DNA of 64,000 bases from assembly GCF_022376445.1 (NCBI RefSeq), contig NW_025955089.1, positions 1-64,000 of the forward strand, in the 5' to 3' direction. Of the stretch, positions 21,553-52,560 are shown piece by piece. Each line of letters begins with the position of its first letter. Positions within the stretch are counted from its first letter, which is position 1. A program made the translations under genes and the position numbers. A model generated the notes under the pieces. It was not told the origin of the DNA. It saw nothing but the letters and a program-made list of their open reading frames with translations, and ran no database searches. The DNA comes from Fomitopsis serialis (lineage: Eukaryota; Basidiomycota; Agaricomycetes; Polyporales; Fomitopsidaceae).

Positions 21553-21596
21553 GTAAGACTGAGTAAGTGATGTGCACATTTGCTGATGCGGGTTCC
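21553..21596. repeat. Right terminal inverted repeat of the Plavaka element
   Basis: GAGTAAGTGATGTGCACATT followed by TGCTGATG mirrors the left repeat at 14615-14655. Confidence 0.85.
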
Positions 21597-22060
21597 ACGG
21601 TACAGAATATGATAACTCATGTCTCCGGCACTGCAATGGTCTTCTCAAGTATTGTTGCTGCTTGTGTATGACCGACATCGAGGTGTCCCACCCGAGGTCA
21701 CCGAGCGATGACGTGTATATGCCGACAATGACGCGAATCAACAGCTGCGGTTCCTATGGCATACATCAACAACAAGATCGGGTCAGGAAAACACCAAGAC
21801 ATACTCGATTCATGTCGAAGACCGCTGATCCTAGGACACCAGTCCGGTCCGCCAAGTACACGGACATGTTTGTGCACCCTATCACAATGCCGAGCACAAA
21901 ACTGCGATCCATTGACTCGCGGAAGACCATGCGCATGCTCTTCAGTAACTGCTTTGACTACTACCTTGTTTCTGCTTCATCTCTGCCTATCCGAGATGTG
22001 CAAGTTTTGCAAATCAAGTTCTTCCACCTCCTCGAAGTAAGTGCCATGTCCACGGTCCAG
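21597..22060 (-). pseudogene. FunK1-type protein kinase fragment
   Basis: On the minus strand, KSMRMVFRESMDRSFVLGIV is followed by NMSVYLADRTGVLGSAVFDM, then after an apparent intron by EPQLLIRVIVGIYTSSLGDL and GWDTSM. This order matches the pre-kinase region of fungal FunK1 proteins (RRFVIGL..., DRSGVLG..., FIRVI... GWDPTM). No kinase catalytic core follows; the Plavaka terminus lies directly downstream. It is a truncated remnant. Confidence 0.68.
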
Positions 22061-22159
22061 CTTGTGAACTTGAAGCACCGCGACTCGGACCGGGCATCCC
22101 CATCAGTGTCGAGGCCAGAAGCTCACATTTTGTACCGCATCTAGTCATCCATCGTCTGC

Positions 22160-22478
22160 GCCAGCGCATATACAGGCTTGGAATGCCAACGCAATTGAAC
22201 TTGACGTCGTCAGTGAACTCTCGACTGATGTGTTTTGTGACGTTGCTGGCTTTCTGGAGAGAATGTTCCCTGTCTCGGACAAGATCATGAACAAGGTCTT
22301 CGCAAACGCGTCGAAATCCCGATGTTACAATGCTCCAAAGAAGCAGTGGTCAGGCTACCCGACCCAGCAAACTACTAACCACAAAAGCAATTTGTATGCG
22401 CCGTTCGTCACGCTCGCACGATCTATCGCTGGCCACACATCAGCAAATCGGGCAATTTCTGAGCATCTGACTGGCTGA
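22160..22478 (+). pseudogene. Probable FunK1 N-terminal fragment in the opposite orientation
   Basis: The plus strand reads IELDVVSELSTDVFCDVAGF, then LERMFPVSDKIMNKVF, KQWSGYPTQ, SNLYAPFVTLARSI and a stop. The combination (FLxxFxP..., then LYxPFVxxxxxI) resembles the N-terminal part of FunK1 proteins. It faces away from the neighbouring minus-strand FunK1 fragment, so an inversion or two insertions is implied. The match is weaker than for the other fragment. Confidence 0.45.
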
Positions 22479-32560: not shown

Positions 32561-32608
32561 TTCCTAAGTTCAATTGGACAATCCTTACAGCTCGCAATTC
32601 ACATTACT

Positions 32609-32690
32609 GAGTGGAACTTGACCGTTACTAACGGTCCACCCGGAGTGCATTTGGCCCGTTTGTAACGGTAGGCCCGGGCTCGGCCGGAGC
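32609..32690. repeat. Left terminal inverted repeat of the 19.3-kb element
   Basis: Starts GAGTGG, contains ACGGTCCACCCGGAGTGCAT from 32631 and ends CTCGGCCGGAGC at 32690. Its reverse complement is at 51794-51874. Confidence 0.92.
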
Positions 32691-33050
32691 AGGTAACCTG
32701 CCGTATACAGAGGTCCGGCCGGGCTGCACGTCTCGGGCTTCTAGCGGTCCGGCCGAGTACCGACCGACCCGTATCAAACGATTGGCCCGGAGCCGGTTCC
32801 ACTATGAACCCTGAATTCCAACGTGGCGGCCGGACATTCAGCGCGCGGCGAGTGGACGGCGCGGCCGGGGGCGTCCGGCCGCAGCAGGGTATCCACTTTG
32901 AGCATTGATTCTCAACGTGGCGGCCGGGAATTCAGCATGTTCTCAATGGACGGTGCGGCCGGAGCGAGTGGGGTGATCATGGGTGGGGGCTCCGGTCGGA
33001 GCTTAGGGACGACACCCATGAGTTAGACGGTGCGGTCGCTCACCAGCAGG
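32691..33050. repeat. Left subterminal region rich in CGGCCGG
   Basis: Two related passages, ATTCCAACGTGGCGGCCGGA near 32815 and ATTCTCAACGTGGCGGCCGG near 32910, are diverged repeats. No gene is supported. Confidence 0.6.
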
Positions 33051-33054
33051 CATG

Positions 33055-33850
33055 GTGTCCAACGGTCCGGCCGGTGTTGTCAATCCAGATGTGCGGGGCT
33101 ACAGCCTCCATATATAATACACCATTCCCAACGGTCCGGCCGGTGGCGGTCCACCAGGGATTCAGGGATGGTCCCATGTGTGGATGAGGGTACCGCCCTT
33201 GGGCCGTGGATTCGAACGGTCCGGCCGGCGAGTGCGACTTAGGTATCGCCTCATACATGGATGAAGGTACCAACCTCGGGCCGTGGATTCTGACGGTCCG
33301 GCCGGCGAATGCGACTTCGGTATCGCCTCAGTGATGGATGAAGGTACCGCCTCGGCTCTCTATGGATGAGGGTACCGACCTCGGGCCGTGGATTCTGACG
33401 GTCCGGCCGGCGAGTGCGACTCAGGTATTGTCACAACTATGGGTGAAGGTACCGACCTCGGGCCGTGGATTCTAACGGTCCGGCCGGCGAGTGCGACTTA
33501 GGTATTGCCTCATACATGGATGAAGGTACCAACCTCGGGCCGTGGATTCTGACGGTCCGGCCGGCGAATGCGACTTCGGTATCGCCTCAGTGATGGATGA
33601 AGGTACCGCCTCGGCTCTCTATGGATGAGGGTACCGACCTCGGGCCGTGGATTCTAACGGTCCGGCCGGCGAGTGCGACTTAGGTATTGCCTCATACATG
33701 GATGAAGGTACCAACCTCGGGCCGTGGATTCTGACGGTCCGGCCGGCGAGTGCGACTCAGGTATTGTCACAACTATGGGTGAAGGTACCGACCTCGGGCC
33801 GTGGATTCTAACGGTCCGGCCGGCGAGTGCAACTCAGGTAGGTACGGCCG
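33055..33850. repeat. Tandem array of 77-bp units (105-bp variants) centred on CGGTCCGGCCGG
   Basis: CGGTCCGGCCGG starts at 33217, 33294, 33399, 33476, 33553, 33658, 33735 and 33812, giving spacings 77, 105, 77, 77, 105, 77, 77. The 105-base units contain an extra 28 bases. Each unit also carries GATGAAGGTACC and CTCGGGCCGTGGATTCT. Two further diverged copies precede the array (near 33062 and 33132). The units are highly alike, indicating recent amplification. This is a candidate transposase-binding or regulatory array beside the left end. Confidence 0.9.
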
Positions 33851-33919
33851 GTTACTTTTTGCAGCCGAGGTATGTGATGCATTGAACAACGGCGGTCGTA
33901 CAGAGCATTACAAATCTGT

Positions 33920-35990
33920 CTACCGTGAACCACTCGCCTCGCGATACCATTCCTTCACCCATGCTACTGCCGCCCTGTTTTGGTTGTTTGCGCGCTGCAG
34001 TGCCAACAACGAATCGATGTGTGCCATCACCGCGGCACGCTCGGCGGCCAACTCCAGCACTCGTGACGACATTGCGCCGGTCAGACCGCCATCTGACACA
34101 AAGAAATGGATGTCAGCGTGTCTATGTATGAGCAAATGAAATGAGTACGTACGGGTTTCCGGAGCCGGATTGAACGCATTCGTCGCAGTCGGAGCGAAGG
34201 TGAAAAATGCATCGTCTTGCTCATGGTGTGGAGCAAGGGTGCTGGTAATGTTGGCAGGGACCATCCTGTCAGGCTCGGCGGGCAACTCACGGGACTTTCC
34301 TTTGTCCTTGCGGGTGCCTTCTTCCTCACCTGTGCTGGGGCTAACGCCTCCAAGCACATTGCTCCCCGACCCCGGGGATGCCGCAACCCCGTCCAAGGGC
34401 TGATGTCACGCCTCCAAGGCGGTGGCACCCAACCAAGTTCGCCGAACTTCGGGCCCACCGGTGCGCTTTTCTGATACCCTGAAAATTCGGGGAAGGCCGG
34501 CACCCGGAGGGCCTTACCATCAGCGTGTCGGCCGCTCGAGGTGCTCCTGTTGTCCGGTCGGCCATCCGTGATCTCGATGTCGGAGTCGTTGCTGGCGTGC
34601 GTCAGTGGTGCGGGCGTGTATCCGGTGATCACGACGTCGGAGTCGCAGCTTGCGGCCCTTGCGCCACGCCCAGCCGGTTCGTCAGCTTGTATCTTCTGAG
34701 CGTCGGCCGGCTCGTCCGTTCCCCTGCTCGGCGGGCCCGGCGGAAGGGACCCCTCATGATCGTCGGTGGCGGTCTACCGGCAGTGAGTTTCTGGCTGCTC
34801 CGAGTGAGTGCCGGGACTTACCTCATCAGCGATTTCCATCGGGATGTTGAATAGCTTCCGGCTGTGCGCACGGCCATCCACCTTGGCGGGCACACGCTCT
34901 TGCGGCGACTACACCGAGCACAATGTGAGTATCTGCTTTGTCGGGCAACGGTGGGTATGACACACCTCACTACGTGCAACGGAGCTCCCGGCCCGCGATG
35001 CTAGTGTTGTTGCCAACATCTTCGCGACAAGCGGATCCATGTCCTGCTGGCAGGAAATCAGCGAAAATCATTGTGAACAGACCATTGAACTTACCGGTAT
35101 CTCATCCTCCGTTGGGATGCCGAACAAGCTTCCTCCCCTTCTCACCGTCGCCAGCGCCGACTCGACAGGCACCTATGCGCATGTTGGTGAGTACATGCAC
35201 ACCGTCAACCTTCAACCGAGACTCACCTTCTCGTCGGTACCAACGTCCGAATCAACTTCCATCGGGATTCCAAATAGGCGTGGAGCCACCGACGCCGAGC
35301 GAGCACGCTCTGGACCTGCAATAAGCTAGCAGCAGCTTCCGTCAGTATGAGGCTGAACTGCTCGGCGAGAATACACGTACCACGGCCATCTCCACATCCT
35401 CTTCCTTTGGAATGTTGAAGAACTTGCCCGGGGCGATTGGTTCCCCACTGCCACCGGCATCTGTCCTCGGTCCGTGAACATTCCGGCCGGATGCTGCGTG
35501 GGTGGCAATTGGCTGGTAGGTAGCGGAGGTTAGTATTGCTCAATTACTCGGCATGAGTCCACATACCAGAATCGCATCTGCAGGTTCTTCCTTCGGAATA
35601 TTGAAAAGTCGGCCGGGCTCTTCCTTGGGAATGTTGAAGAGTCGGCCGGGCTCGTCCTTCGGAATGCTGAATAGTCGGCCGGGGACAGCCTGCCCGCCAC
35701 TGTGACCGGCACCCGTATTAGCTCCGTGAACATTGGGACCCGGCGCAGGGTGAATCGGCTACCGAGGATGCGTCAACTGGAGCGTGATGAGCAGATCGCG
35801 GCGGTACGTACCTCATCATCAAGCCCGATTGGGCTTCTCGATGCTTGGCGGGCGTTCCGGCCGCCACGCGATCCCTGCCGACGAGTTGACACGTCACGGC
35901 CGCCGGTTTTCTTGCGAGAGGCTGGAAGAAGGGTTATGAGTGGTAGGCCCCGGCGATTGGGCCGGGGACATACCTTGCTTGGCCATTGTT
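33920..35990 (-). CDS. Element protein with repeated LF-x-IP-x-E motif
   Basis: Minus-strand gene read from a tentative start near 35990 (MAKQ) to the stop at 33920-33922. At least seven copies of a short motif are visible: GRLFSIPKDE, GRLFNIPKEE (twice), GKFFNIPKEEDVEM, PRLFGIPMEVDSDV, GSLFGIPTEDEIPV and an FNIPMEIADEV-like copy. Two copies are preceded by a similar leader (NVHG...T.AG..SG), so exon-sized duplications built the protein. The rest is disordered, rich in Pro, Ser and Asp, with DSDIEITDGRPD resembling an acidic interaction motif. The C-terminus is helical (SSRVLELAAERAAVMAHIDS, WVKEWYREA). At least two frame slips and unresolved first exons limit the model. No known family; repeated short linear motifs suggest multivalent protein binding. 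Confidence 0.55.
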
Positions 35991-36245
35991 GATACGATGG
36001 GTTGAGGATACGCAAGTGGTCAGGAGGAAGAGGTGTGGCGAGCGATCACCAAGTTGATCGCCCATTAGCGCTCCCGCGGCATCACCGGAGTCACGTGCGC
36101 CGTGTGGCTGCAGTGTGGCTGCTAAGTTCGTGATCGCCGGCGCTCTTCTTCCTTTGTCTCCGCGTTCACCATCGCGTTCTCGCATCCCGGCTCCTCTCCG
36201 CTGCACCTCCACACTTGCTTCGGCCCCTGCTCGATTTTGCTTGCC
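35991..36245. promoter_or_regulatory. Divergent promoter region between two element genes
   Basis: About 255 bases separate the tentative start of the LF-x-IP protein (-) from the ATG of the zinc-cluster protein (+). Divergent pairing with a short gap suggests co-regulation. Confidence 0.4.
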
Positions 36246-39017
36246 ATGTCTGCCGCGTCTACCACCCCCGCCACGTCAGCAACCGCGCCGGCTCCTGCCG
36301 GCCTAAGAATGCCTCGCCCCCACCTCAATCATTTCCTGGAAATCACGAACGCCAAGCTGCTGAAGATGATGGGGAATGGTTTGGTGAGGCAGGAGGATGA
36401 GGCGGCGCTGGCAGAGGAGATTGTGAGTACCCAGGGCTTCATGTAAGCTCGTCCAGGAATCTAACCATTCACCTGTAGCTTGGAGAGTTCATTGAATGTG
36501 TGGTAAGTACGCACATATATCGCTCTTTCGGTCCCTGACGTTTGTGGTAGTACGGGGCGGTCCATGCAGTTGTGAGCGGTCGGACGGCGGGCGAGCCTCC
36601 CGAGCAGCGGCCGATGGTGCCGCTGTTCCTGCTCTCAGCGATTCTCGAGCTGGACCACTCGCCGAGGGAAGGCCTCAAACTGTCCCGCATCCGTCCGGAC
36701 GATCCACGGGTCCTCACCTCGGCGTGGCGCAATCCTCGTGCGCCGTCTGGCCTCCCTGAACGCCCTCGCTCGCCGACCCCCGTTCCCGGCCCGTCTCGTC
36801 AGCCTTCGACGACGGTGCGCTTCCAGGACTTAGCGGCGGATTCCGACGGTGAGGAGGAGGTCCCGGTGAAGGAGGACGGGATGGATGTCGACGAGGTCGA
36901 GAAGACCCCACCTCGCAAGACTAGAAGACCGCGTCGAGCAAGAAGACGCCGGGCCCTGGACGGACCGAATCGGCGGGTACCAAGCGCAAGCGGGCGCCGA
37001 CTCCTACTCGCAAATCGAAGGGCAAACAGCGCGCGCAATCACCCGAGGATGAGCAAGGCGACAACGAGCGGGCGGCTGGACATCAGGACGAGGAGACCGA
37101 GCAGGAGATGGACGAGGAGGAACACCCGAAGAAAAAGCGGGCGAAAGGTACGTCGTGTTCACCTTGCCTTGTTGGATTCTAACCGTCATCTATACCAGGC
37201 TCAAAGCCACCGAAGGGCATCCTCGTGAAGAAGACAGAGGAGGTCCACGGCGAGCGGGCCAAGTTCGAGATGGAGTACGTGCCTGGGAAGGTTCGACAGT
37301 TCGTCCACCGGCGTGAGAAGGTATGTTTGGTACAAGGTCTCGGTCTCATCGTGACTCACATCTTACACAGCCGGACCCATGCACCCAATGCAAGGGGTTC
37401 CCTTGCTATATTTCAACACCGGAGGGCTACGAATTCAAGAAGGACGGCACCATGAAGGACCCACCGCCGGCATGCGACTATTGCAACGTCAAGAAGGTGA
37501 AGTGCGAGCCCATCGACACCGAGGGCACGTTTAAGCCCAAGAAGTCCCGCGGGCGTAAGGGCTCGAAGAGACGTTCCTCGGCCGGCTCTGGCACAGAGTC
37601 CGAGGGCACCGACGAGCCGCAAAGCGAGGCGGAAGCTCCGCCCACGACTGACGACGAGCTCGACCGGGCTGACACTGCCTCGGTCACGTCTCACGGCAGC
37701 CGGCGCAGCTCTCGACGGGCGGGTACACCTTCTCGGCGACCGACAACCATCGCCAAGAAGGCTGGCAAGAAGGCGCAGAAGGCGGTCAAACAATCGCCGG
37801 CCGTTACGCCGGCGCCTCAGGAGAACGCGGAGGCTGGGCCCAGCTCTGAGGTCCAGCAGAAGCCCGTGCGTACGAGGAAGACGAAGGGTCCTGTCCGGGA
37901 CGTCGCCGACATTCGTAAGTGCATGTACGTCTCATTCTCGTATTGTGTGCTGATGATGCAGGTCGCATCTATCCCATTTTAGTCGCTGACAGGAAGCGTG
38001 AGTTGTGGAGTTCGGGGGCCCGATCGATGTCCTCCAGGAGGACGACCTGAATCCAACACTCGCGGCGCTGCGCATCCGCGAGCTCCAATCGAATGTCCGG
38101 GACCTCCGGGAGCGGCTTGAGTCGATGGAGGCCAGGGACCGTGCTATGCGAGCACGTCAGGAAATTCTCGGTAAGTTCTCAATGTGTTTTGAAAATCTAA
38201 TGCTGATGCTTTCCAACAGCCCGGGCAATCCTCGACAGCGAGAATGTGGACTACCGCGAGCTCATCAAGGAGATGCTGGAAGAGCATGAGCCGGCCGACC
38301 AGATGTTCGTCGGCGCGGTTCCTCAATATCCCGGAGGTGCGGACCCGGGCCCCGCGTATGAATCGGACGACTCGTCCACTGAGTCGCATGGTGACCTCGG
38401 CGAGTCCCCACCCGGTGCGCAAGACGTGCCGGAGCCTCGCGACGAGGTGACTGACCCTGTAGAGGTCGCCGGTCCCGCATCCCCAGCCCCTCCGCCGCCG
38501 AATGACACTGTGGCCGGAGGTCCCGAGGTCCCTGCTGGGCACGACGAGGTGACCGGCTCCGCCGCTGGGCCCATGTCCCCAGCCCCTCCACCCCCGAAGT
38601 CACCGTGGGCGGGGGATCTGACATTCCTCCTGGGCAAGGCGAGGTGACCGGCTCCGCCGCTGGGCCCGTGTCCCCAGCCCCTCCGCCCCCGAATGTCAGC
38701 ATGGCCGGCGGTCCGGAGGTGCCTGCTGGGCAAGACAAGGTGACCGGGTCTGCCGGGACTGCCCGATCAGAGCCGGCGGCGCAGCGACCCCATTCCTGCT
38801 GGGAACACGCACGCGACCCCCCCGGCTGTTCTGGAAGGTATCCGAGCGAACTTGGCAAGGTTCGTCCCGCGCCCACTTTTCCCACTCCGTCGGTCTCAGC
38901 TCCGGCCCTCAACAGCACCCAAGCCAGCGTGCCGTCGTCATCCCCGAGGAGAATCACCCGGCGAACGAGAATGCGATGGATGTTGACGAGGGGAATGCGC
39001 CGGGCCAAGCAAAGTAA
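36246..39017 (+). CDS. Cys6 zinc-cluster, coiled-coil protein with Pro-rich tandem repeats
   Basis: Starts at ATG 36246 (MSAASTTPATSATAPAPAG), then HLNHFLEITNAKLLKMMGNG. Exons carry VPLFLLSAILELDHSPREGL, a highly basic and acidic linker, and a Cys6 motif C-x2-C-x4-C-x22-C-x2-C-x5-C (PCTQCKGFPC ... ACDYCNVKKVKC). This resembles a fungal Zn2Cys6 DNA-binding cluster with an enlarged loop. A coiled coil follows (LRIRELQSNVRDLRERLESM). Near the end a 96-base unit (DEVTGSAAGPMSPAPPPPN...) is repeated about 3.5 times at 38444-38760, one copy being 95 bases because a C is missing near 38595. The tail reads ENAMDVDEGNAPGQAK to TAA 39015-39017. Similar Cys6/coiled-coil proteins are common in mushroom genomes. 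DNA binding is inferred; it could recognise the CCGGCCGG palindromes. Confidence 0.65.
38444..38765. repeat. 96-base coding tandem repeat (32 residues, Pro-rich)
   Basis: GAGGTGACCGGC-like words begin at 38444, 38546, 38641 and 38737. The 38546-38641 interval is 95 bases, one short, coinciding with a C-run and a frame break. The other intervals (102 and 96) keep frame. Confidence 0.8.
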
Positions 39018-39692
39018 GGGTCCGAGTTCGTGTAGGCTGCACTAATGTAATTACCACTCTGTACAATGTATCGCTTCCGCTGCACACTTACAATGAAATG
39101 ACACATGAACTTGGAATGTCGGATGTGTACACTTAACAGGAAGTTTCTCCCCCGCCGAGTGCTTGTAAGAACTGCCGGGCCGAGAGTATCGCATTTTGCC
39201 CGGGCCGAGACATCAAGTCGATATGTCGGTCCATGACCCACACCTCAGAAAGTCCAAGATTACATTGTGCCACTGTGTAATTCACAGTCCATCTGCTGCT
39301 CAACCATCATGTTGACCTCAGCGTGGTGTGTTACATTGTGACCGCCGAAGGTTTGCATCGTGCTCGGCCCGAGGGTTCGGCGAAATCGTCGGGCCGAGAG
39401 TTTGTCAAAAGTCTCGGCCCGAGTGACCGCCGGGCGGTGCTTGTCATTTTGGCTGCACTGTTGAATACATGGTAGCTTTAGCGTGGTTTGTTTACATTGT
39501 GACCACCGAGAGTTTGCATCGCGCTCGGCCCGAGAGTTCGGTGAAATCGTCGGGCCGAGAGTTTGTGAAAAGTCTCGGCCCGAGTGACCGCCGGCCGGTG
39601 CCTGTCATGTTGGCTGCACTGTGAGATACACGGAACGTCGTAATGTGATTTCGTGAATGCGTCGGTGGTAAAACAATGCGTGTACAGACTGT
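39018..39692. repeat. Intergenic region with a 160-base tandem duplication
   Basis: A segment beginning GCGTGGTGTG at 39321 recurs at 39481 as GCGTGGTTTG, extending about 150 bases with small changes. Both copies are dense in CTCGGCCCGAG and CGGGCCGAGAG. The genes on either side converge here, so this holds their 3' ends. Confidence 0.75.
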
Positions 39693-42600
39693 CTACTTCT
39701 TCCCCCGAGAGCCACGCTTAACCGGAGCCTTGCTGCCTGAGGGCTTGGATGACCGGCCGGCGGCCCAGGCTCGGTGCGGGGCTTCTTCGTCCGCTTCCCA
39801 GTCCCGAGCTCTTCGTCATCGACCGCAGCGGAGGGCCGCTTGGAACCAGTGGCGGATCCTGCCTCCCAGCGAGCCCGAATCTTCTTGCAACGCTTGACGA
39901 GGTCCGCGGCAACTGCAGCATCCAAGTGGGAATCGAGCACATACTGCGGGACTCCGTGGTTCAAGCTCGGGGCGACGTCCTTGCTCTCGATGTCGTGGAT
40001 CAGCATACCCACAGCCAGTGTTACCAGCAGACCATCATCGCGCGCCATGACATTCTCGCCGAGGGACGATTCCATCGTTGTGAGCCATCGGCGGAACTGT
40101 GTCAGTTCCTTCTTGTCGTTGTGGATGGAGGAGGGGCACGTTGCTCGGCGGTACGACCAGCTGGCCCACTCCCACTTGGTTGTCGAGTGCCAAGTCCCGG
40201 GTCAGGCTGGTACGATTGAGTGAGCATGCTTTTCGGAGGGAGTACAGGACGTTACTCACAAGCTTCAGAGCAGCCTTCACCATCTTGCCAATCTCGTCGT
40301 CGCCACAGAGAACCTGCAAGAACTTGCGCCGGGCATCCACATCCGAGGCGACCTTCGCCGGACTGCCCTTCTGAATGCGTGGGCCGGGCTTGCTACCGCT
40401 CGGCTCGGCGCCGGCGGTGTTCTTCTTCGGCGGGCCTGCTTGTGATGTCAGCAAGTTGTCCCTCTGTAGAAATGAGATGACGGACCGGCAGCTGGCGAAT
40501 CAGCTTCCTCGTTATCCTCGGCGTCGCTGTCACTCTTGGTTGACTGCTTTGGGCGGGCCGTGGTAGACTTCTTCGCCGTGGCTGGCTTCGGTGCTTTTGC
40601 GGGGGCCGGAGCTTGCACCGGGACATCGCCCTCTTCACCGGCGTCTTCGTCGTTACCCTCGGCCACGGTGTCTGCACAATAGTATAAGGATGTTAGCTTT
40701 GCGTACACGAGTCGCCCGTTGTGATGAGACTAACCACGGTTCTTCTTGGACACACGACCGCCAGACTTTGGCTTGGCCGACTGCCCGGCCGACCCTGTGC
40801 TAACCACCGGCTGGTCACCGGCGGCCTGGTTGCGTGATGCGCCGGCCGACTGTGTGGATCTCGTGCTATCCTTCCCCTTGCTGGTCTTCCCTGCCCCGCC
40901 CCCTGCACTCTTTCCACCCACCGACTGTCCACCTTTCTTCTGAGCCCCCTTAGATGGACCTCCTCCTCGGCCTTCCTTCGTCTTCGTCTGCATCGGGACA
41001 GCCTCCTCGTCGTCCTCGTCACTGGAGGCAGCGATCACCGCCCGGCCCTTGCCCTTGCTCGGTCGGGCCACCACGACCTCCTCGGGGGCGTGATCAGAGT
41101 CCTCGTCATGGCTCTCCTCGTCACTGGAGGCACCATCGAGGTCCTTTGCGGGTTCGAACAACGACCCATGGCCCACAGCATCAGAGTCCACACTCGAGGC
41201 CTCCTGGTCGTCTGAGGAGTCCACCGGCGTGTCTGACTTGGCTCGGCGAGAGGCACGTCGGGCGGCCGGGGAAGCACGGCGGCGTCTCGGCTTAGGTTGG
41301 GGCTTCCGCTTAGGCTCGGGCGCCGGAGATGGTGAGCTCACCCTTTCCTCCTCGTCCTCGACCTCCACGATCTGTTTCGCCGCGTTCCTCCAAGCCTTGA
41401 AGCGGAGCACAGGTTCTCCGTCGTCGGCATCCTGCCTCACACGCCAGTGACGAAGGACCGCATCGAGGTCCCCAGCGCGGATCTTGTTCGGGTCGCTGAG
41501 AACAACGCCGGCCGGCAGATAGCCGTCCTCGAAGAACTCCTCCGACTTTTCCGACAGGGACTGCCACGGCACCCTGATGTTCTCGCGCCGGGTGTAATGA
41601 GCTATTGTATTCTCCGAGGTGAGTGGCCGGCCATAGGGAATTGGACTCATTGCGCTCACCGTATGTCATGCGGACAAACGTACTCAGGAACATACGCTTG
41701 TGATCGGTCTTTTTGAAGCACTCGTGATCGGCCGGCGGCAGGATGGGATACCCGTCATCGTCGAACTTCCACTCGATGCGGTCGATCAGTTTCGATGGGA
41801 CGATACTCTCCTCGCCTTCAAACCCGTTGGCGTCTGAGCGAATACGTTGAGCACCAGCACGTAGCATATGCTGGGCACACTCACTGAATGCGTCCTCGGC
41901 GTACTTCTTCCACATCTCGTACGTGTTGCCCCGCCGGAAATCTTTGAAGACCTGGATAAAATTTGGTGGCTCGGTGCCTGGTCCGCTGCGAGGATACGCA
42001 TTGTTATAGTCCCATCTAGTCCTCGTCATCTTTCTACATGTCCAATGCGTCTGGACACTACACGTACTGCATGTTCCCCGTCTGTCCGTCCTCTCTCAAG
42101 TACGCCCCGAGCACAAACACCCTCACCCCACACTTCCTCCACATCAGCTGAACGAACTCGGACACCATCCCGTTGCCGTGCCTAGCGAGGTGCTTGTACT
42201 GGTACTCCCTCGGCCACACGGTGGCGTTGTACTCGGCGGCGGTCTTCCGGTACTTCGCCTCGTCGAGGGGGCGAATTCCGTCGCAGAGCTCCTTCAGCGC
42301 AGTCTGGTAGATGGACGGATACAGCTTTGTGTCCTTCTCCCTCCCGTTCCCATGCTTCTTTATCAGCTCTTCCAGCTCCTGCTCATGAGCTTGGGCACAG
42401 ACCGTGCGCCATGAGAGGTCCTTGCCGAGCTTGATGAGGTCCTTCCTCACCGGCTCCTTATCCTCCGTGTCGGTCTCGTGGTTAGCGAACCACTGCCCAA
42501 CTTCCTGCAGAAAATGAGTATGAATACACTGCAGGTAGAGCGGTACCTACCTCTCGCATTACATTGTCAAGGGGGTACCCCCTGATCTTCCCTAGCTTGT

Positions 42601-42718
42601 CAACGGCCTCGGCGACAATCTCCCCTCGCTGCTCGCCATCCTCCGGAAGCTTCCGCCATTCCTCCAGGCGGAGATTGAGGACGTCGAGGTCGCGTTTCTG
42701 CCAGTAGGACCTTCCCAT
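39693..42718 (-). CDS. Basic/acidic companion protein of the KDZ element
   Basis: Starts at ATG 42718 (MGRSYWQKRDLDVLNLRLEE, WRKLPEDGEQRGEIVAEAVD) and runs leftward through several exons. Segments include LSWRTVCAQAHEQELEELIK, TALKELCDGIRPLDEAKYRK, PPNFIQVFKDFRRGNTYEMW, RIEWKFDDDGYPILPPADHE and VPWQSLSEKSEEFFEDGYLP, then LSDPNKIRAGDLDAVLRHWR with VRQDADDGEPVLRF. The remaining half is Lys/Arg/Ser/Glu-rich and disordered, followed by a more ordered C-terminal part (MLIHDIESKDVAPSLNHGVP) and a probable basic tail ending RGSRGKK. The order helix-rich region, VPW...LP...DP...L..HW..RQ resembles proteins I associate with transposase neighbourhoods in Agaricomycetes. Function unknown. Frame changes near the C-terminus leave the last 25 residues uncertain. 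Confidence 0.6.
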
Positions 42719-43737
42719 TGTGGCAAGGGACGAGGAACGTTGCAAGGAAGAGTGGGCTTTGCGGAGGAGGCACAAGTGGAGGCTTGAGGAAGAGATGTGT
42801 TTCGGCGCCAGTCACCCAAACGAACACCGACGTTTATGACCAGTCACCAAATAGTCTACGATTTTGTACCGGGGCTTTGCCCTTTCTCTGCATCATTTAT
42901 GTTAGTATAGATATATCTACATTCATTGTGTCGGTCGTCACTGTACATTAATGCTTTTTTGGCCGCAAACATCTTGAGGCAGACCACCGGCCGGACCGTT
43001 AGAAACCCGGCCGGTCATCGCTCGGACCATTTGGTCCCAAGTCGAAACTCAAAACCGCTCAGTGACAGCAATGTGACACCACGGGGCAGCGCAACTACGA
43101 CCAGCCGCCGCTGAGTGGAAGCCCGCAGCCCGGGGCACCCGTTCCGAGGGCTCGGCGCCCGGCCGGATCGTTGTAACGAAGCAACCGACCACGGGTGGCA
43201 CGTTCTGGAATAGAACCGGGGCGGCTTCTCCGCTCCACTCGTAGGGGCCAAGCGGCCGGCGACACAGACATCCCATATGACCCGAGTCACTTTCATCAAT
43301 TCGGTGACTGGAATGTGCCCCAACCACGACACCAGGGTGGCCAAGCAATGCCTGGGCGTGAGCACGTGACTCGGATCAACGGCCGGGACGATCGAAACCT
43401 GTGATTGCCGGCCGCATCAATTGCTACGGAGCCAAAGGTGGTTCTCCCGGACCGTTGTCTGATGTCGGGTGTTGTGCTTCGTTCACTAGAGGCAAATCTG
43501 CGACCGGTAACACATATTCCATCAGCCGTTCCGGCCGGATCACCGAGGACCCATCGCCGCAAACAGACAGCCGGGTGCGGGTGACGGGCAGTGGTGTGAC
43601 AGTTGCACCGATGGGGGTCCAATGAATCTCATTGGTTTTTCCCCCCTGTCCACCGATATTCTCGCATCATCCGGGTGCTCCGGCCGGCCCGTTACAAACG
43701 GCCGACCTCCTTGAAGCCTTGCTTTCCAGGCTGGACG
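42719..43737. promoter_or_regulatory. Divergent promoter region upstream of the KDZ transposase
   Basis: About 1 kb without a supported gene lies between the companion gene (-) and the KDZ transposase (+). It contains repeated CGGCCGG words (for example ACCGGCCGGACCGTTAG near 42987 and TCCGGCCGGCCCGTTAC near 43679), related to the subterminal arrays. Confidence 0.5.
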
Positions 43738-46700
43738 ATGGCTCGACTGCCGAGGGCAAGCTCCCCTACTGTGGTGGAGGTTGCCATACAGAGGACGAGA
43801 ACCAAGCGGGGAGTTAAGTCCCGCATCGTTCCCGTAAAAACGAATGTATTGCAAACACCACCGCCGACTCCTCAGCGGCGCTCGCAGCCATCCACGAGGC
43901 AGTCAAGCTGGATGAGACAGGAGCAGGATGACGAGCCTCCTAACAATATATTCCTCGATCTTTTACCAGCGCGAAGGGGCTCCCCAGGTACGATAGTTAG
44001 ATCAGCACAAGCAATGTCGGTGATGACATTATTCATTAGACTCAACCCCAAATGCTACGGGAGTGGATCCCTCTGCAAATACATACCTCAGGTCTGTCTA
44101 TGGCCAGTCAAAGCCCCCAACGACCGGCCGAGAAGGCACCTTCGAGTGCGCAAGCTGCAGTAGCGGAGGCGGCGTGTGGAAGTGTTCATCGTGCATCGGT
44201 TCGCCATTTACTGTCACACTTGCTGTCTCACCCAGCACCGCCGAACACCATTCCACCGAGTGGAGCAGTGGAGGATTGAGGGCTACTGGGCCCCTGCCTG
44301 GTTGAAGGATGTCGGGCTGTGCATCAATTTGGGTCACCGAGGTGCACCTTGCCCGGTCCCTGAGCCCTTCGCCGACGTCGATGATGACGATGAGAACGGC
44401 CGGCCGAGGAAGAAGAAAACGACCCGGAGGCTGCTCAGGACGATCCTTTGCGACATGCCGACCCTCCACCAAGACCACCGGCGTCCATGATGACCATCGT
44501 CGACACGACCGGCATACACTTTCTGCCGGTGAGATGGTGTGGATGCGCCGGCGCGGCCAGTCATACCTCTCAGCTCCTTGACTGTGGCCTGTATCCGGCC
44601 AGTCAACGTGCCGCTCGAACGTGCTTCACATTCACCGTGCTCGATGACTTCCTGCTCGACAACCTTGAGTGCAAGACGACGGCGATGAACTACTACCGGC
44701 GTCTTCGCCGAGTCACTGATCCTGTGTTCCCCCATGAGGTGCCGGTAAGTGTGCGGTTCTCTGTAAGAGGTGCGAGGACATGGCTCACGAGTGACAAGGA
44801 CCGATATTTGGAGCTCCTCAGAGTGAGTCGGGAGTGGACCCTGCTGCAAGCCAAGAAGGAGCATGGGTACGGGCCGGCCTGGCGTGGGGTTCCGGGAGAC
44901 GGTGACCTTGCGAATTTCTGTGCTGCATGCCCGCAGCCCGGTGTAAATATCCCACACGAGTGGCAGGCCGACGACCGAGAGTAAGTTGATGCGTGCACGT
45001 ACTCTGCGAAAGCTGACAGCGCCGGCAGCTATTTGTACGCCCGAACGTACGTCATGGACGGAAACTTCCACGCTGAGCAGATGCGGATGCGGAATCCAGG
45101 GAACGATGTTCCTCTTATGCCGGGAAAGATGTTTATGGTCAACCCCGGGCCTTACGAGGACCACCTGCTGGTGGCGAAAGAAGTCAAGATGGTGAGCTTT
45201 ACCACTCGGGCAATAACGCTCGGCCCGGTGTTGACGAGCGGACAGCCCTCCACCTGCCACGATCATAAAGCGGTATCGCAGGCAAACGCCGACAGACACA
45301 AGCTGGCAGTCACCGGCATAGGTGCAACATCGTGTGCCAGACACGGCTGCTTCGTGCCTCATTCGGTGGTGAACTTTCAGAAAGGGGAGCGCCAAATGAA
45401 CATGGATTACTCCCTATCAAATGCCCTCGGGTATCAATCCAAGGGCCTCACCCACGTCTACCTATGTTATGACATCATTTGCCAGTACCATGTGTATCTC
45501 GACAAACGGTTTGCGGGTAACCCCCATCTTCAATGCCCAGCGGTCTGGTGCTGTACAAGTGCATCGGCCTCTTCCACGTACACGGCCATCAGGCAGTGTG
45601 CGAGGTCCGACACTCGCTGACCTTCACAAAGGGCGCCGGCGAGGTCGACGGCGAAATCATCGAAACACAGTGGTCGACGACAAATCGTATCTCTGGCAGC
45701 ACCCGGACGATGTCGACGTCCACCGGCAGGAAACACTCGACCGGCACATGAATGACTGGAACTGGAAGAAAATGATTACCATGGGTACGTCGCCGGGGCT
45801 TCCACTGCCACATCCTCATCATCTGAACAACCGGTAGTGGCATCCCTAAGGAGGAAGATAAAGGCGAACCGGCCCCTGCTCGCCGAGATGAAACAGGACC
45901 TCTCGGCGAAGGAGTCAGGATTGAACGCCGAGACTCTGCAGAGCTGGAAGCGCGAATTGAACATCGCTCAACGCCGGCGCCTCACCAATGTAAAGCGATG
46001 GACAAATACCTTGTGAAGAAACCAATTGTGAGTGCATGCGATAGACCCGGGCGCACGGTGACATAACTCCCTGAACATTGCAGTGCCCACTCAGACAGAC
46101 CTCCTGGTACAGCTCACCGAGGCCGAAGGAAACGGTGGCCGGATTGTCGGGACTGCCGAGTGGATCGCCGAGGGCCTCAAGCTTGAGGAGCTACAGTATG
46201 TCTTGTATGCCGCAGTACGAGGTCATGCTAATGCACCAACAGACTTACCATCCGAAGAGACGTCAAGCAGCAAGGCGAAAAGATCACCAAGCCTCAGCAA
46301 CTGAAGCTCGCTCAACGTCGGAAGGCCCTGGAGACACGAATCCGACGGTTTCACCGGCAAGCCAACGCAATCAGCCACCGGGCAGACTGGGGTGTTGATG
46401 AATCCGAGGCAGATGATGAGGAATGGGAGGATGAAGGCCCGGTCGTCGCCCGGGAGCCACACGGCCCATGGAGTATGTTCACCAGCCGGCCGAAGCTTCC
46501 GCACAGCGAGAACATGGCCGAGCAGACCCCGCTCGGGCTCCCATCCAACTTATCTCCTGTCGTGTTTGATGATGAGAGTCTGAAACGTCTGGCCGAGCAG
46601 GAACTCACCCTTCGGCGTGGGCAAGCCAATGATGCGCTCCACCAGCTCCGCCTCCTTCTGGGCCACAAGTCTTTTCAGTTTCGTACCAGCATTCGGCATG

Positions 46701-47305
46701 GCAAGTCCAACACCAAGCGCACCCGAGCATTCACCACAATGAACAAGCTCGACCGGGCCGTCTCTATTCATGCGTCAATCTACCGGAGGTGCAGAGCTGC
46801 CATGGTGGTCCTCGGTCTCTCAGAGGAGGAGCAACTCAAGTATCAGCGTCTCAGTAAAGAGGACCTCAATGTCACCACCGCCATCGCCGAACCAAACAAG
46901 CCCGGCCAGAGGCACAAATCGACGTCATGGATCTGGAATATCGATGTCGGAGGAGATCTCGACAGGAATGATACACTCTCAATCAGTGAGCAGTACACTC
47001 CATGCGTGTCCGCCATATGTCTCACCGGTATTATAGTTCACCGGATTCACTGGTTCCACGCACGCTCCAAAGTTGATCGCCTGGAAGAAGAGGCCGGCAT
47101 CTTACGCCGGGAACTTGATTCGGTGGGGAGGTATTTCTCTCACCACGCCGAGATGTGGAGAGACCGGGCTATCCAGCACCCAGGCGATGATTATGCAGGG
47201 TTCGCTCCGTACTGCCGGAAGCGTGCCGCGATGTACGACCGTTTATACCGAGATGCTCAGCAGACGTATAGGGATGTTTATGCTGACCCGAACATTTTTA
47301 CGTAG
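43738..47305 (+). CDS. KDZ transposase with N-terminal CxC2-like zinc region
   Basis: Predicted DNA transposase of the Kyakuja-Dileera-Zisupton (KDZ) class. From ATG 43738 (MARLPRASSPTVVEVAIQRT) a Cys-rich region follows: FECASCSSGGGVWKCSSC, then YCHTCCLTQHRRTPFHRVEQ and VGLCINLGHRGAPCP, the usual CxC2 layout. The RNase H-like core shows candidate acidic residues in VMDGNFHAEQM (Asp codon 45057), LCYDIICQYHVYL (Asp codon 45471) and VDGEIIETQWS (Glu near 45653), with GCFVPHSVVNFQKGERQMNM and CIGLFHVHGHQAVCEVRHSL between. The C-terminal part is long and helical and ends DVYADPNIFT at TAG 47303. Frame breaks near 44209 and 44424 look like single lost bases in T- and C-runs. Likely the autonomous transposase of the 19.3-kb element. 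Confidence 0.9.
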
Positions 47306-48028
47306 TGAGACCCGGCAGTTTATGTTAACGAATATATTGAACTTTGGCTGAATTCAGGACTGTATGTTGCGACCATGGCCTGCCGAGCAGAACGTTAAAG
47401 CTTCCGGCCGACCATGGTGCTGAAGGGTTGCCTGCAAGACAACACCGAGTACATACACCGAGGAGACTTAGTAAGCTACCCCAAGACGCCCGACCCTGGC
47501 CAATCATGTCTCAATGGCATTAACCACAACGCATACTCTCGCCCTCCTCGTCCCTTCATGTGCGAAACCACTCCGCCCGAGCACACCGCCGAACCCTCGG
47601 GCCGAGCGAAGCACCGAACCCTCGGGCCGAGCAAACGGCCGAAACCCCGGGCCGAGCAAACGGCCGAAGTCTCGGGCCGAGCAAACGGCCGAAGTCTCGG
47701 GCCGAGCAAACGGCCGAAGTCTCGGGCCGAGCAAACGACCGAAGTCCCGGCCGAGAGAGAGCATCCTTTTGCCGGGCGGATAGACAAGCGGGTCCCTGTG
47801 CCCAATTATGGTGTTGGTGGCGATGAAAACACCTCATTTCGTATAGAGGGACTGTCAGCGCTGACTGAGTTAGAGGGATTGTCAGCGCTGATCAACTCAG
47901 ACATAACCTGAGAGTTGTGCTCAGTCTCTGGGTGTTAGAAAAGTTACCCAATATATAAGTTTCAGTTGTGAGAAGTAGGCAGCAAAGCATAATGAATTAC
48001 AAAAGAGAGCAAATGACAAAACATCAAC
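47306..48028. other. Intergenic region holding a minisatellite
   Basis: Between the convergent KDZ gene and the small minus-strand gene. Apart from the 25-base repeat nothing is supported. Confidence 0.4.
47589..47757. repeat. 25-bp minisatellite (GCAAACGGCCGAAGTCTCGGGCCGA)
   Basis: The word GCAAACGGCC (or GCAAACGACC) starts at 47631, 47656, 47681, 47706 and 47731, exactly 25 bases apart; two diverged copies precede. The unit is not a multiple of three, yet all frames stay open because it lacks stops, so the long open frames here are artefacts. Confidence 0.92.
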
Positions 48029-48631
48029 TCAGGTATCAATCAAATTGTCCCGGATCTCCACCCAATCAATGAGCATCATGAGGAATGCCAGCCGGCCGTC
48101 CATCTCCGGCATCTCCACACTTTCTCGGCTGTTCTCGTGGGTCACTGACATGACCACATGCCCGAAGAAATACCGGCTGATAGTGTATGCATTTGGACGG
48201 AAGGGCACTACCTCGGCGTGGCTGCAACATTTAGTCAGTAAAAACAGATAGGATGAACCGTGGGATTTGCTCACGCGGTTGAAAATGCAAACACCATCAA
48301 CTCTCCCCTCAGCCAGGGATATGGTCCAGAGCGGGGATGCTATTGTGTATCAGCCAAGGGAGATTGTCTCGGCCGGCCGATGACTTACCATATCCAGGGC
48401 CATGCTGAGTGAACAGTACTTTTGGTGGTGGATGATGTGCAAGAGGCACTGTCCACCACTAATGCGCCACAGTGACACACAACCCTGGGAAGATCCCCGT
48501 GTCGGCAAACACTCGGCACGTGTGTTGTGACACTTAACCTTATGCGGAACCGCCGGTGGTGCCTCAGCACGTGCGAGCCACACCGGGCATGTGATGGGTG
48601 TGTGGCTTGTTGAAGATAACGATCGTATCAT
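48029..48631 (-). CDS. Small unrecognised protein of the KDZ element
   Basis: Starts at ATG 48631 (MIRSLSSTSHTPITCPVWLA). Exon 1 continues with HNTRAECLPTRGSSQG, WRISGGQCLLHIIHHQKYC and SLSMALDM. After introns, SPLWTISLAEGRVDGVCIFN and a last exon EVVPFRPNAYTISRYFFGHV ... DGRLAFLMMLIDWVEIRDNL end at the stop at 48029. Roughly 175-190 residues with several Cys and His in the first exon (C, H, C, C, C, H, H, C), so a zinc-binding fold is conceivable. No family recognised. Introns with GT...AG borders support a real gene. Confidence 0.5.
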
Positions 48632-48704
48632 TTGCTCTTAACCTTCATTGCCGAAGCGCACCGAGCACCACAACACCCCGCTACCTTTCAATCACTGCTG
48701 CACT

Positions 48705-49707
48705 ATGCGTTCCACCCTCGGCCCTCTTCTCAACAGTACCGCAAAGGACCTTCTCGGCAAGTTCGCCCGGCAGGAGTTGCGCCCGACGGAGCCGACGGAG
48801 AATGGAGAATTACCATACATAGCAATGATCCATTATACGGTGCGATCAATCCATACTTACGTGTCTGCACCATAGTAACCACTGATGCACTAGTCGCTGG
48901 CGGCCATGATGCTCGGCTTCGAGCGGCTGATGAAGCCCGATGTGGCCGAGGAACTGGGTCTCGGGGAAGTGATGGACAAGTACTGCACGATCATGCTGCC
49001 GGAGGGTAAGACCCAGGAGGAGGTCCTGGTGGACATGATCCTCGGCTTCCGAGCGGCGGATGTCGCTCAACCGCCGCAGCCGGAGACATCCTCGCTGCAC
49101 GCCGAGCACTCTGGTGAACCAGGTAACTGACCAATTCTCTCCGGCCTTTCCGGATATTCATGCCACGACAGAGGGGCAGGTCGGTGCCTGGATGGAAGAT
49201 CCGCCTCAAGTCCGGGATCAAATCGAAGATGCGCTCGATGACATCACGACCGAGCAGGCCAAAATCCAAGAGATGGTCGCCGAGCAATTGAAGGCCGCCC
49301 AACAGCAACTCCAGCATCTTGATGGCCGGCTGCATGTGGAGAAGCTCCGGGTAGGTTTTACACAGCACATTCACATTACATGGGACTTATACAATAAAAA
49401 CTAGGACGAAGTGAGAGCTCACACCGACCGCATCCACCTCCCTGTGCTCCCAAAAATACCCGAGCCAGGTGTGATCTCACCGGAGAACATGCCCCCAAAC
49501 GTGCCAGTCCAAGCCCTGAATTGGTTGGACAGTCTCGGCGAATCGATGGCCGGCATGGATCTATACATCCAGGCAGAGGTGGATTACTGGCGGGCGGTGG
49601 ACCGAGTGAAGGCGGCCGAGTTAGCGGTCTTGCAGCCAGGAGAAGCGCCGAGTGCCGCGGCGGGCTCTTCGCCACCCCGTCCTGTCTCAGAGTCGCATGA
49701 TGGATAG
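48705..49707 (+). CDS. Small helical/coiled-coil protein of the KDZ element
   Basis: From ATG 48705 (MRSTLGPLLNSTAKDLLGKF, ARQELRPTEPTENG), then exons SLAAMMLGFERLMKPDVAEE with LGLGEVMDKYCTIMLPEGKT, then a coiled coil (DDITTEQAKIQEMVAEQLKA, AQQQLQHLDGRLHVEKLR) and a last exon with LPKIPEPGVISPENMPPNVP and LNWLDSLGESMAGMDLYIQA, ending SESHDG at TAG 49705. About 270 residues. No known family; the coiled coil suggests self-association or partnership with another element protein. It converges on the TET/JBP gene. Confidence 0.55.
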
Positions 49708-49953
49708 TCGGGATGTCCCATTAGTGTACAGTCGTATTGGCACCGGTATTTACATCTCGTGATATGACAGGGAAGGCTTTCATGTTCTTATGTGCCCCGG
49801 CCGGCCGAATCAAACACCGGCAGAACGATTGGGCAGCAAGGCAGCTGGCTAGGCCAGACTGTCTGCTATACCTGTACAGTTATTGTGAAGATGAAACCGC
49901 CGAGCACATCAACAGTTCCATATATATTGTAAACACAGTGTAAGGTTATACAG

Positions 49954-51152
49954 CTACTCCGAGTCCATCCGCCAATCCGCCGGGGGAGCGTTTGTCCATG
50001 CATGTACCGCCTCACGCATATAGTAAGATAAGCACAAGCGCTCCTGGGTCGATTGCCGTACGGCATGAGGTATGCGACAGCCAGAAAATACCTCCATAGT
50101 GCCACTGTAGTATGGCATCTTCATTCCCAAAGTAGGATACTCCATATGCAAGGTCTTGTCTCCGCCGAGCGTGAGAATCATATCGTACCAGTGCTTCGCC
50201 GAGAGTACGTCTCGGTGAAGTGGACTGGCCCGGTTGGCAATCACCGATAAGGCGTTGAATGGCGTGTTCCATATCTCGGCGACGCTAGCGCGGTCCGGGT
50301 CGTTGCGCAGTGCATTGATCGACGCCACGCCACTTGCATAGAGGTCCGGATGGAGTATCTCGAGCATCGCCGAGAGGATGATATGGGGGTGCTCCATCGC
50401 CGAGAGCCACGGTCGGGCGAGCGAGGTCGGTTCCCTCAGCAGCCGCGATACCTGGGGTGGACCTGTAGTACCCTGTTGCGGATTAATACAACATATGATG
50501 ATCAGTACGCCATGGATGCCCACCGTATGACCCTGCTGAAACCAGCCGGGCGAGGCAGACAAGCACGACGGCGGGAAGATTGGACATTCATCCGCATTGC
50601 GGTAGTTGTTGATATCTTGTCTCCACTTCTCGGTGGTGGTGGGGGGTAGCGGAGGAACAGCGGTTCCAGTTGACCTGCGGTGTCCCATATGAACTGCTGC
50701 TTGATTGTTAAAAACCGGTGTGATGTCTGCCTGGCGATCTCGCATACCTGGTAGTACGGTGTGATTACGCCGGGGAGATGCCACAAAAGAATCCGGCCGG
50801 CGCTATCCTCGATGGTCGCAGGCTCCTTGCACGCCTCGTACTGTACGTTCTCGGCTTCTTCATCGCTCGGTGTTGTCATCGGATAAGTCAATGCGTCCCA
50901 TTCAACGCTCCCTCCAAGTGGAGTGTTAGCCAAGCTTACGATGGCGGTCAATGGAAGCTCACTTCGGTTACAATAAGCCTGAGCTAACATCTTGCCAGCA
51001 TTCGTCGCCTGGCGTATCATATACACATCCAGGAAGAGACCTGGAAGTGGCTCGGGCTTCATCGCCTGGCCCTCCTGCATGCGAGACAGCCAGTGTAAAT
51101 ATGTCCCCTTCAGGTAGGAACGAAATTGGGTGCTGATCTGTGCGGTAGTCAT
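49954..51152 (-). CDS. TET/JBP-family Fe(II)/2-oxoglutarate dioxygenase
   Basis: Predicted oxidase of 5-methylcytosine (or thymine) in DNA, as for fungal TET/JBP proteins. ATG at 51152 (MTTAQISTQFRSYLKGTYLH). Ordered motifs: LPGLFLDVYMIRQATNAGK, LPGVITPYYQVCEIARQ, CPIFPPSCLSASPGWFQQGH, VAEIWNTPFNALSVIANRAS, then PLHRDVLSAKHWYDMILTLG, YPTLGMKMPYYSGTMEVFSG and CRIPHAVRQSTQERLCLSYY with MREAVHAW. The Fe(II) triad would be His and Asp of HRD (codons at 50215-50217 and 50209-50211) and His of IPHAV (50065-50067); Arg of QERLCLSYY is the likely 2-oxoglutarate contact. At least two introns. One frame slip in the C-run near 50641-50646. Basidiomycete TET/JBP genes are known to expand with KDZ transposons. 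Substrate and activity are inferred. Confidence 0.85.
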
Positions 51153-51793
51153 GTTGGAGAGTGGGGGGGATTGGAGAAGAGTTGCGCGACAAGTTTGCAC
51201 GATGTGGAGGACCTGATGGGCAACATGTGGTGACCATGTGTTTGCCTCATGTTTGTAGGCATGTGATGTTGTCAGTGCTCAAGTGACCCCGGCTAGGTGC
51301 TGGTTCATGCATGCGCCATCTCATGTGATGTCACGTTGTCTGGATGATTGCCCTTGACAATTCTGGTGCCGATTTGGCCCGCAGGATCATTGATATGAGC
51401 CCCGGCCGGACCGTAGGAAGCCTATTTTTTTCGAGGCCTCCGGCCGGTCGTGGCAGGGTCGGGGCGGTCTGGTCCGGCCGAGAGCCTTTTTTCGGCTCCG
51501 GGTCGTTGCAAGGGGTCCGGCCGGAACGCTGGGTCTGTGTCCGGCCGGACCGTAGGAAGCCTATTTTTTTCGAGGCCTCCGGCCGGGTCGTTGACAAGGG
51601 GTCCGGCCGGAACGCTGGGTCTGTGTCCGGCCGGACCGTAGGAAGCCTATTTTTTTCGAGGCCTCCGGCCGGTCGTTCGCCTGAGGTCCGGCCGGAACGT
51701 TACACCACAGCCGGCCGGACCATTCCTAACCACCACCCTACCTCCGGCCGGTTCGTTGCTGCCGGCGGCCGCTCCGAACGGTGGACCCGGAGT
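51153..51793. repeat. Right subterminal region: three copies of a CCGGCCGG/T-tract repeat
   Basis: CCGGCCGGACCGTAGGAAGC, then CTATTTTTTTCGAGGCCTCC and GGCCGG, begins at 51402, 51541 and 51627. The last two lie within an 86-base direct repeat also containing GTCCGGCCGGAACGCTGGGT. The first 250 bases are the presumed promoter side of the TET/JBP gene. Confidence 0.85.
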
Positions 51794-51874
51794 GCTCCGG
51801 CCGAGCCCGGGTCCACCGTTCCAAACGGGCCAAATGCACTCCGGGTGGACCGTTCGAAACGTGATTTCCCACTC
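51794..51874. repeat. Right terminal inverted repeat of the 19.3-kb element
   Basis: Begins GCTCCGGCCGAG at 51794 and ends CCACTC at 51874. It is the reverse complement of 32609-32690 with few differences. Confidence 0.92.
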
Positions 51875-52560
51875 ATTAGGCTCTGGATGCATTCCACGTG
51901 CGCTCGACTCGTCCGCTTGCTCGCGCCCTCGTCCCTTCGCTTGCTCGCTCTCCCTCTCGTCTGCTTGCCTATCCGCCCGCATTGCTGTTCGCCCGCTTGC
52001 TGTTCGCCCGCTTGCTGCTTGCCCGCCCAGCCGCCCTCTCGCCTGCCGCCTGCTCTCTCGATCGCCTGCCTGCTCTGCCTGCTCTCTCGACCGCCCGCCT
52101 GCTCTCTCGGCTGCCCGCTCGCTCTCTCGACTGCCCGCTCGCTCTCTCGACCGCCCGCTCGCTCTCTCGTCCTAACGAACTCGTCTGCCTCCGCGACTTA
52201 AATCTATGCGAGGTGCATGTCGAGGAGCGTGCGCCTCTACCACGCGTACGTAGGATGCCCGCCCTCGCAGCAAGACGGACGGCCGTGTTGCACCTCATCT
52301 TCTCGCCTGCTTACCTACTCACCTGGTCGACCATGCGCTGCTCTTGCCCGGTCACCTGCGTGCCCTCTCGCCTGCTCATGCGCACCTTCTTGCCCGCATG
52401 TCTGCTCTGCTCGCTCGCCCACTGCCTGCGCGGACCCGCATGGAACCCTTACGCGCTGCAGTGGGTTGGTACCCGAGTGGGTCGGGTCTACCCATACGAT
52501 ACTTATTTTCGTAGTTGTACCATTTTGTCATTCCACAATCTAATATATCTTATCTAATGT
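51875..52560. repeat. Low-complexity C/T/G-rich DNA (CTCTCGACCGCCCGCTCG words)
   Basis: Tandem words such as CGCTCTCTCGACTGCCCGCT and GCTGTTCGCCCGCTT repeat over 51890-52180 and fade afterwards. Plus-strand open frames are Leu/Ala/Pro/Ser-rich artefacts. Confidence 0.65.

Follow-up and report, generated by a model that had tools for sequence, protein, structure and literature searches.

Background

Does the 19-kb stretch of DNA between inverted repeats in the first 64,000 nucleotides of contig NW_025955089.1 of Fomitopsis serialis represent one mobile unit, and does it travel with a fixed set of genes around its TET/JBP dioxygenase? The initial annotation of this 64-kb stretch (hereafter, the window) had proposed an intact composite KDZ transposon with seven genes. 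We find that this 19-kb stretch almost certainly belongs to a lineage of six-gene transposons that comprise a KDZ transposase, a TET/JBP dioxygenase and four accessory genes, termed G1, G2, G3 and G5. A unit of this kind is supported by a fixed gene order at many divergent loci, by 7-bp target duplications and by uninterrupted copies of a target. The window copy itself, however, is probably not one intact insertion.

TET-bearing (TET+) elements of the Kyakuja group with 7-bp duplications are known across the Agaricomycetes, and among TET+ elements only TET+ Kyakuja occur in the Polyporales; according to the sections of that study drawn upon here, the function of TET in fungal transposons has not been experimentally validated (PMC12730594). 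In Pleurotus, CxC2 precedes the intact KDZ elements (PMC7641404), and KDZ terminal repeats have been characterised in Marasmius (PMC8290104).

Methods

The assembly searched consists of 66.2 Mb in 806 contigs, in which the window is G000:C34:1-64000. Gene models were generated with a small gene finder that was written for this analysis and trained on the window. Genome matches to each gene were collapsed so that every locus gave a single row, and rows lying within 13 kb formed a group; 30 weak TET rows were left out of the grouping. Expected counts for CCGGCCGG were obtained from a first-order Markov model with 20 shuffles.

Results

The element belongs to a mobile family

Genome searches with each element end matched at least 41 places per end, a lower bound because 40 of 71 and 40 of 80 candidates were scored. 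Fifteen of the fetched elements have both canonical ends. Of these, 12 carry a perfect 7-bp target duplication and three do not, namely the window copy, L041 and L047. A sixteenth element, L051, has an altered left end and a 6-bp match at its borders, found with a looser script in which the fuzzy end search clipped bases. Copy C301 measures 18,787 bp and carries six gene models within one pair of ends and one 7-bp duplication. Its insertion target is another repeat. Related target copies on C82, C78 and C257 align with both flanks of C301, overlap there as expected and contain no element (the C82 sequence was read). Empty sites, which the initial annotation had named as support for mobility, were thus recovered; they are paralogous and not allelic.

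The member at L061-L062 (G000:C25:72040-87171) extends over 15.1 kb and has a 7-bp duplication of its own; it is a short derivative into which about 11.5 kb of other repeat DNA has been inserted. At L050 and L026 (G000:C64:67782), the target flank resembles family terminal sequence, which would fit insertion of one element into the terminus of another. In L065-L068 (C307 and C308), only the right half (KDZ, G5 and TET) corresponds to the window element. The left 10 kb of these two copies resemble each other but not the window element, and the fetched stretch contains no left end.

Six genes keep their order and orientation across the genome

Within the genome, we obtained 108 matches for KDZ, 71 for TET, 100 for G3, 62 for G5, 68 for G2 and 62 for G1. 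Two or more gene types occur together in 47 groups, 44 of which keep the order and orientation of the window; for groups with three or more types, the figure is 26 of 29. The complete set occurs in the same order and orientation in seven of the 47 clusters, of which C34 (the window contig) and C301 are close copies and C139, C163, C188, C58 and C634 are divergent, with piecewise identities of about 30 to 66% for G2, G3 and G5. The exceptions to collinearity are C28 (38.9-59.7 kb), which is complete with an extra TET, C179, which is rearranged, and C264, which has a neighbouring G1.

At 25 of the 28 G3 loci, KDZ lies in the same cluster. Six groups (C100, C144, C654, C72, C75 at 33-38 kb, and C86) contain G3, KDZ and TET only, within 4.7-6.1 kb and with G3 identities of 28-40%. 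These groups suggest a three-gene core to which G1, G2 and G5 would have been added later, a direction of change that we infer. A divergent G1-G2 pair stands alone over approximately 3.1-3.6 kb in eight clusters (C141, C153, C169, C256, C327, C372, C465 and C75 at 8-11 kb), which are perhaps fragments, contig ends or a unit of their own.

Layout of the window copy and its two enzymes

The inverted repeats of about 80 bp that had been placed at 32609-32690 and 51794-51874 do exist, as a 69-bp pair with 93% complementarity at 32623-32691 and 51793-51861, but the borders common to other family copies shift the element ends outward (Table 1). The element starts with CACATT and ends with GGCTC. Instead of seven genes with five further ones beside the two enzymes, we found six genes with four accessory ones, in the order G1, G2, G3, KDZ, G5, TET. 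The seventh candidate, a Cys/His gene, was rejected, since the Cys/His stretch belongs to the KDZ transposase as its CxC2 domain, as seen on the C307 copy.

Table 1. Positions of the element and its parts in the window
Feature	Positions	Strand	Description and basis
Whole element as assembled	32600..51883		19,284 bp; borders from alignment with other copies
Left terminal inverted repeat	32600..32691	+	Begins CACATTACTGAGTGG
Subterminal tandem array	33181..33840		77-bp type units with GGTCCGGCCGGCG and CTCGGGCCG
G1	33920..35986	-	Conserved C-terminal segment; seven LFxIP peptide repeats in the window copy's family; own gene model, LFxIP scan
G2	36309..38647	+	Six-cysteine motif and low-confidence predicted coiled coil; gene model; near-identical to annotated P0003 (P0003 and P0004 matched)
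G3	39260..42718	-	About 900 amino acids, unknown family; near-identical to annotated P0001; 3' part of model below 39697 uncertain
Tandem array	39320..39630		Contains CTCGGCCCGAG and GCCGGCCGG
KDZ transposase gene	44487..47305	+	CxC2 at start, KDZ core at about 45036-45721; position of true upstream start uncertain; frame interrupted compared with C307
Tandem array	47577..47755		25-bp units (CGGCCG / CTCGGGCCGAG)
G5	48705..49707	+	282 codons, no known domain; own gene model
TET/JBP dioxygenase gene	49954..51080	-	Start may lie slightly upstream; frame broken relative to C307
Subterminal tandem array	51498..51699		86-bp units with GTCCGGCCGGA
Right terminal inverted repeat	51793..51883	-	Ends CCCACTCATTAGGCTC

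Both enzymes of the initial annotation were confirmed. The KDZ transposase profile (PF18758) scored 87 bits in the window open reading frame against a cut-off of 26.6, and the C307 gene model scored 172.5 bits for PF18758 and 99.4 bits for CxC2 (PF18803); a KDZ core with an associated CxC cluster places the gene in the KDZ superfamily. The TET/JBP profile (PF12851) scored 44.4 bits against a cut-off of 34.9. The catalytic half of the C307 gene model aligns with CcTet of Coprinopsis cinerea in the PDB (7vpn and 8jkk; E 1.6e-19 and 1.4e-19), whereas the N-terminal half aligns marginally. HRD, the Asp337 counterpart and the distal His are kept in this alignment, and Ser occupies the counterpart of Gly331. 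These are the features given for AG-type TET/JBP enzymes (HxD, counterparts of Asp337 and Gly/Ser331, distal His) in the part of the source consulted (PMC12730594). Of the 71 TET rows in the genome, 30 form a second class of weak TET/JBP matches (approximately 24-31 bits) at other loci, many in frames of about 130 amino acids, and perhaps represent another TET lineage.

The accessory genes

None of G1, G2, G3 and G5 matched a Pfam family above the curated cut-off, and P0001-P0003 had no NCBIfam match. Profile searches of G3 and G2 against the PDB gave chance-level matches only, and structure prediction reached a mean predicted local distance difference test score (pLDDT) of 35.4 for G3 and 43.4 for G2, with two input sequences each. 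Protein-database searches matched G3 and G2 only in F. serialis, with two proteins each; because the genome encodes more G3 loci than were matched, the database appears sparse for proteins of this kind and is a poor guide to their presence in other species. The C-terminal segment of G1 was matched in 16 further divergent places. Substitutions by codon position lean towards the third position in G3 (8/3/21) and KDZ (2/3/9) relative to C301, and in G5 relative to C307 (0/1/5) and C308 (2/6/11).

Motif arrays and gene-less derivatives

CCGGCCGG occurs 33 times in the element versus 0.8 expected. It is absent from the 44.7 kb of window flank, and other controls hold 1 in 10 kb, 0 in 9.4 kb and 0 in 9.9 kb. 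The proposal that the element is rich in this motif from end to end was therefore borne out as to richness, but the copies are not evenly spread, with 3.31 per kb outside exons and 0.38 per kb in exons. All four tandem arrays in Table 1 hold CCGGCCGG or related motifs. Inverted CGG-CCG pairs are enriched at spacings of 0, 1 and 5 (78/9, 49/11 and 45/10, observed/expected), as are everted CGG/CCG pairs at a spacing of 2 (44/13) and direct ones at a spacing of 1 (118/22). Since several arrangements are enriched, the arrangement alone identifies no binding mode.

The initial annotation held that the same ends without genes between them would speak against the unit. Such copies do occur: 13 fetched loci (L039-L051) are derivatives that span 2.2-3.8 kb and contain long inverted arms internally, and several of them have their inner 2 kb in the opposite orientation to L039. 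No genes were detected by tblastn and gene finding on L039, to which the other 12 align over most of their length. A perfect 7-bp duplication of its own, however, accompanies 10 of the 12 derivatives with both canonical ends, and on this ground gene-less copies were rejected as evidence against a mobile unit. They would be non-autonomous derivatives, as expected of a cut-and-paste element. Every one of the 13 carries 17-32 copies of CCGGCCGG in its 2.2-3.8 kb, versus 0-2 in the surrounding kilobase of flank. The observed/expected ratio of CpG is 0.69-0.85 in the short derivatives versus 0.98-0.99 in full elements.

Neighbouring genes in the window

A Plavaka transposase (1.8e-105) adjoins a DUF6532 gene on the opposite strand at 15173-22478, and a match to the ELP1 alpha-solenoid (4.5e-50) at 9933-12330 marks an ordinary host gene near the element.

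Discussion

It is hypothesized that the family is a KDZ cut-and-paste lineage, likely Kyakuja, in which six genes are inherited as a unit that protects itself; this is the best overall explanation available to us, and we regard the chances for and against it as evenly balanced. The terminal repeats would be the substrate of the transposase. At least one accessory protein would bind the CGG/CCG-rich motifs in non-coding DNA, with G2, given its six cysteines and possible coiled coil, as the best candidate, and would bring TET to that DNA, where 5-methylcytosine would be oxidised. The element and its gene-less derivatives would thereby escape silencing and remain mobile. The parts of this proposal differ in strength. 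The conserved partners most likely serve the acts of transposition and oxidation. That TET acts against methylation of the element is somewhat better than an even prospect, and that the motif arrays are docking sites that target TET is possible but doubtful. The fullest version, a lineage with a complete kit of self-targeted demethylation, whose own adaptors would read the CGG/CCG arrays, place the on-board TET and protect parent and derivatives alike, appears unlikely; in that version, the VANC strategy would have been invented a second time, independently and with an enzyme of its own.

Several observations weigh against this explanation. The evidence for the divergent six-gene loci consists of gene matches. 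No third-position bias of substitutions is seen in G1 (5/10/3) or G2 (6/6/8) relative to C301, nor in TET (13/4/10) or KDZ (3/5/2) relative to C308, and all four copies compared over the KDZ gene carry gaps of their own. An LF-x-IP protein had been counted as part of the fixed accessory set, but the seven LFxIP repeats in window G1 have no counterpart in the 2 kb of C188 that holds its G1, which rules them out as a conserved family trait. G2 fell short as a fungal Zn2Cys6 protein, at 10.6 bits for the Zn_clus profile versus a cut-off of 21, and the cysteine spacing of P0003 differs from the canonical Zn2Cys6 spacing. GGCCGG occurs seven times in 2 kb of the divergent C188 locus. The window flank has eight in 44.7 kb, but three other controls of about 10 kb have 7-9 each, such that the excess at C188 is modest and the enrichment there suggestive only.

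The main competitor is an ordinary TET+ Kyakuja element whose extra genes serve transposition only, through DNA bending or complex assembly, with arrays needed for excision and an untargeted TET. Derivatives that keep ends and motifs but no genes are what would be expected of sites used in trans, and the portion of PMC12730594 consulted speculates on non-specific action in the Agaricomycotina, citing oxidised methylcytosine on retrotransposons too. The motifs, however, are scattered over all 19 kb, in introns as well as between genes, and not just near the ends, and we consider this account a serious one that nonetheless falls short of even chances. It is highly improbable that the six genes came together by chance through nested insertions. 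Nested or neighbouring elements are indeed present at C25, C179 and C264, but chance events of this kind would have to yield one order and orientation seven times over, in five cases with strongly diverged proteins, within a collection that is collinear in 44 of 47 groups, and at C301 a single pair of ends and a single duplication enclose all six genes.

For the window copy alone, the description as one intact unit was not confirmed, based upon its lack of a target duplication, its flanks from two loci and the frame breaks in its transposase and TET genes. Its left flank matches C18 at 99%, where C18 continues without an element. Its right flank is that of C301 (99%), including the C301 duplication TGGATGC, which is absent on the left. 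Because the flanks come from a C18-like and a C301-like locus, the window copy probably combines the left part of one family insertion with the right part of another. True recombination between two family members could have produced the same mismatch, as two near-identical 19-kb repeats could recombine; no second allele of the sequence beyond the C18 site was found in the assembly, a result that fits both recombination and an assembly join. Between 46,855 and 50,894, however, no substitution separates the window copy from C301, and none is seen over the 500 bp of right flank that was compared; the differences there are gaps, mostly of a single base, as if one locus had been assembled twice. 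Further left, identity ranges from 95 to 100% in 500-bp steps. We therefore regard recombination as quite unlikely and an assembly join as probably the better account. The frame breaks in the KDZ and TET genes are single-base differences relative to C307. Over the KDZ stretch of four copies, runs of at least three equal bases make up about 13% of the sequence but hold 12 of the 39 gap columns. In stretches without substitutions, C34 and C301 are still set apart by gaps of a single base. We lean towards residual assembly error rather than decay as the source of the breaks.

Assignment to Kyakuja among KDZ elements is very likely, judging by duplication length and host order. TET+ Kyakuja elements, as described in the available part of PMC12730594, share with the present element the KDZ transposase, an AG-type TET and 7-bp duplications. 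The present element differs in its six conserved genes, its length of about 19 kb and its 69-bp inverted repeat; two Laccaria Kyakuja families have CA..TG termini without inverted repeats, a feature not stated as a definition and not seen here. The text of PMC12730594 covered describes no accessory gene set for TET+ Kyakuja. KDZ1-3 of Cryptococcus neoformans resemble the element in their KDZ core with a CxC-type cluster and terminal inverted repeats, but are 9-11 kb long with CxC1 and 4-8 bp duplications, and the word 'dioxygenase' is absent from the text of that paper as far as it was covered (PMC12810828). Arabidopsis VANC proteins, the anti-silencing factors of VANDAL elements, recognise target motifs in non-coding DNA, often tandem repeats; they combine conserved domains with variable regions that often hold tandem peptide motifs, according to the sections consulted (PMC5735166). 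The likeness lies in motif arrays concentrated in the element's non-coding DNA and in the tandem peptide motifs of G1; the difference is the TET enzyme on board of what is here a putative anti-silencing system. No kinship to VANC was seen among G1, G2, G3 and G5 at the Pfam level.

No recognisable description of the six-gene set was found in the Kyakuja and KDZ literature searched. Iyer and co-workers, who reportedly named KDZ in 2014, are said to mention in their abstract additional proteins, including one with a divergent HMG domain. We presume that this protein could be G3, in which case part of the gene set may have been seen before.

Conclusions

On top of the known TET+ Kyakuja elements, what looks new here is a conserved six-gene set with motif arrays. 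There is good support for both the set and the arrays; targeted demethylation stands as a hypothesis that can be tested and not as a result. The conserved order in distant copies suggests that the element may travel with its own kit for escaping silencing, and its fixed partner genes and dense arrays make it testable whether the partners aim the TET enzyme. If they do, the lineage would provide a natural system of sequence-specific demethylation and a second case, outside plants, of co-evolution between transposons and silencing through target motifs.

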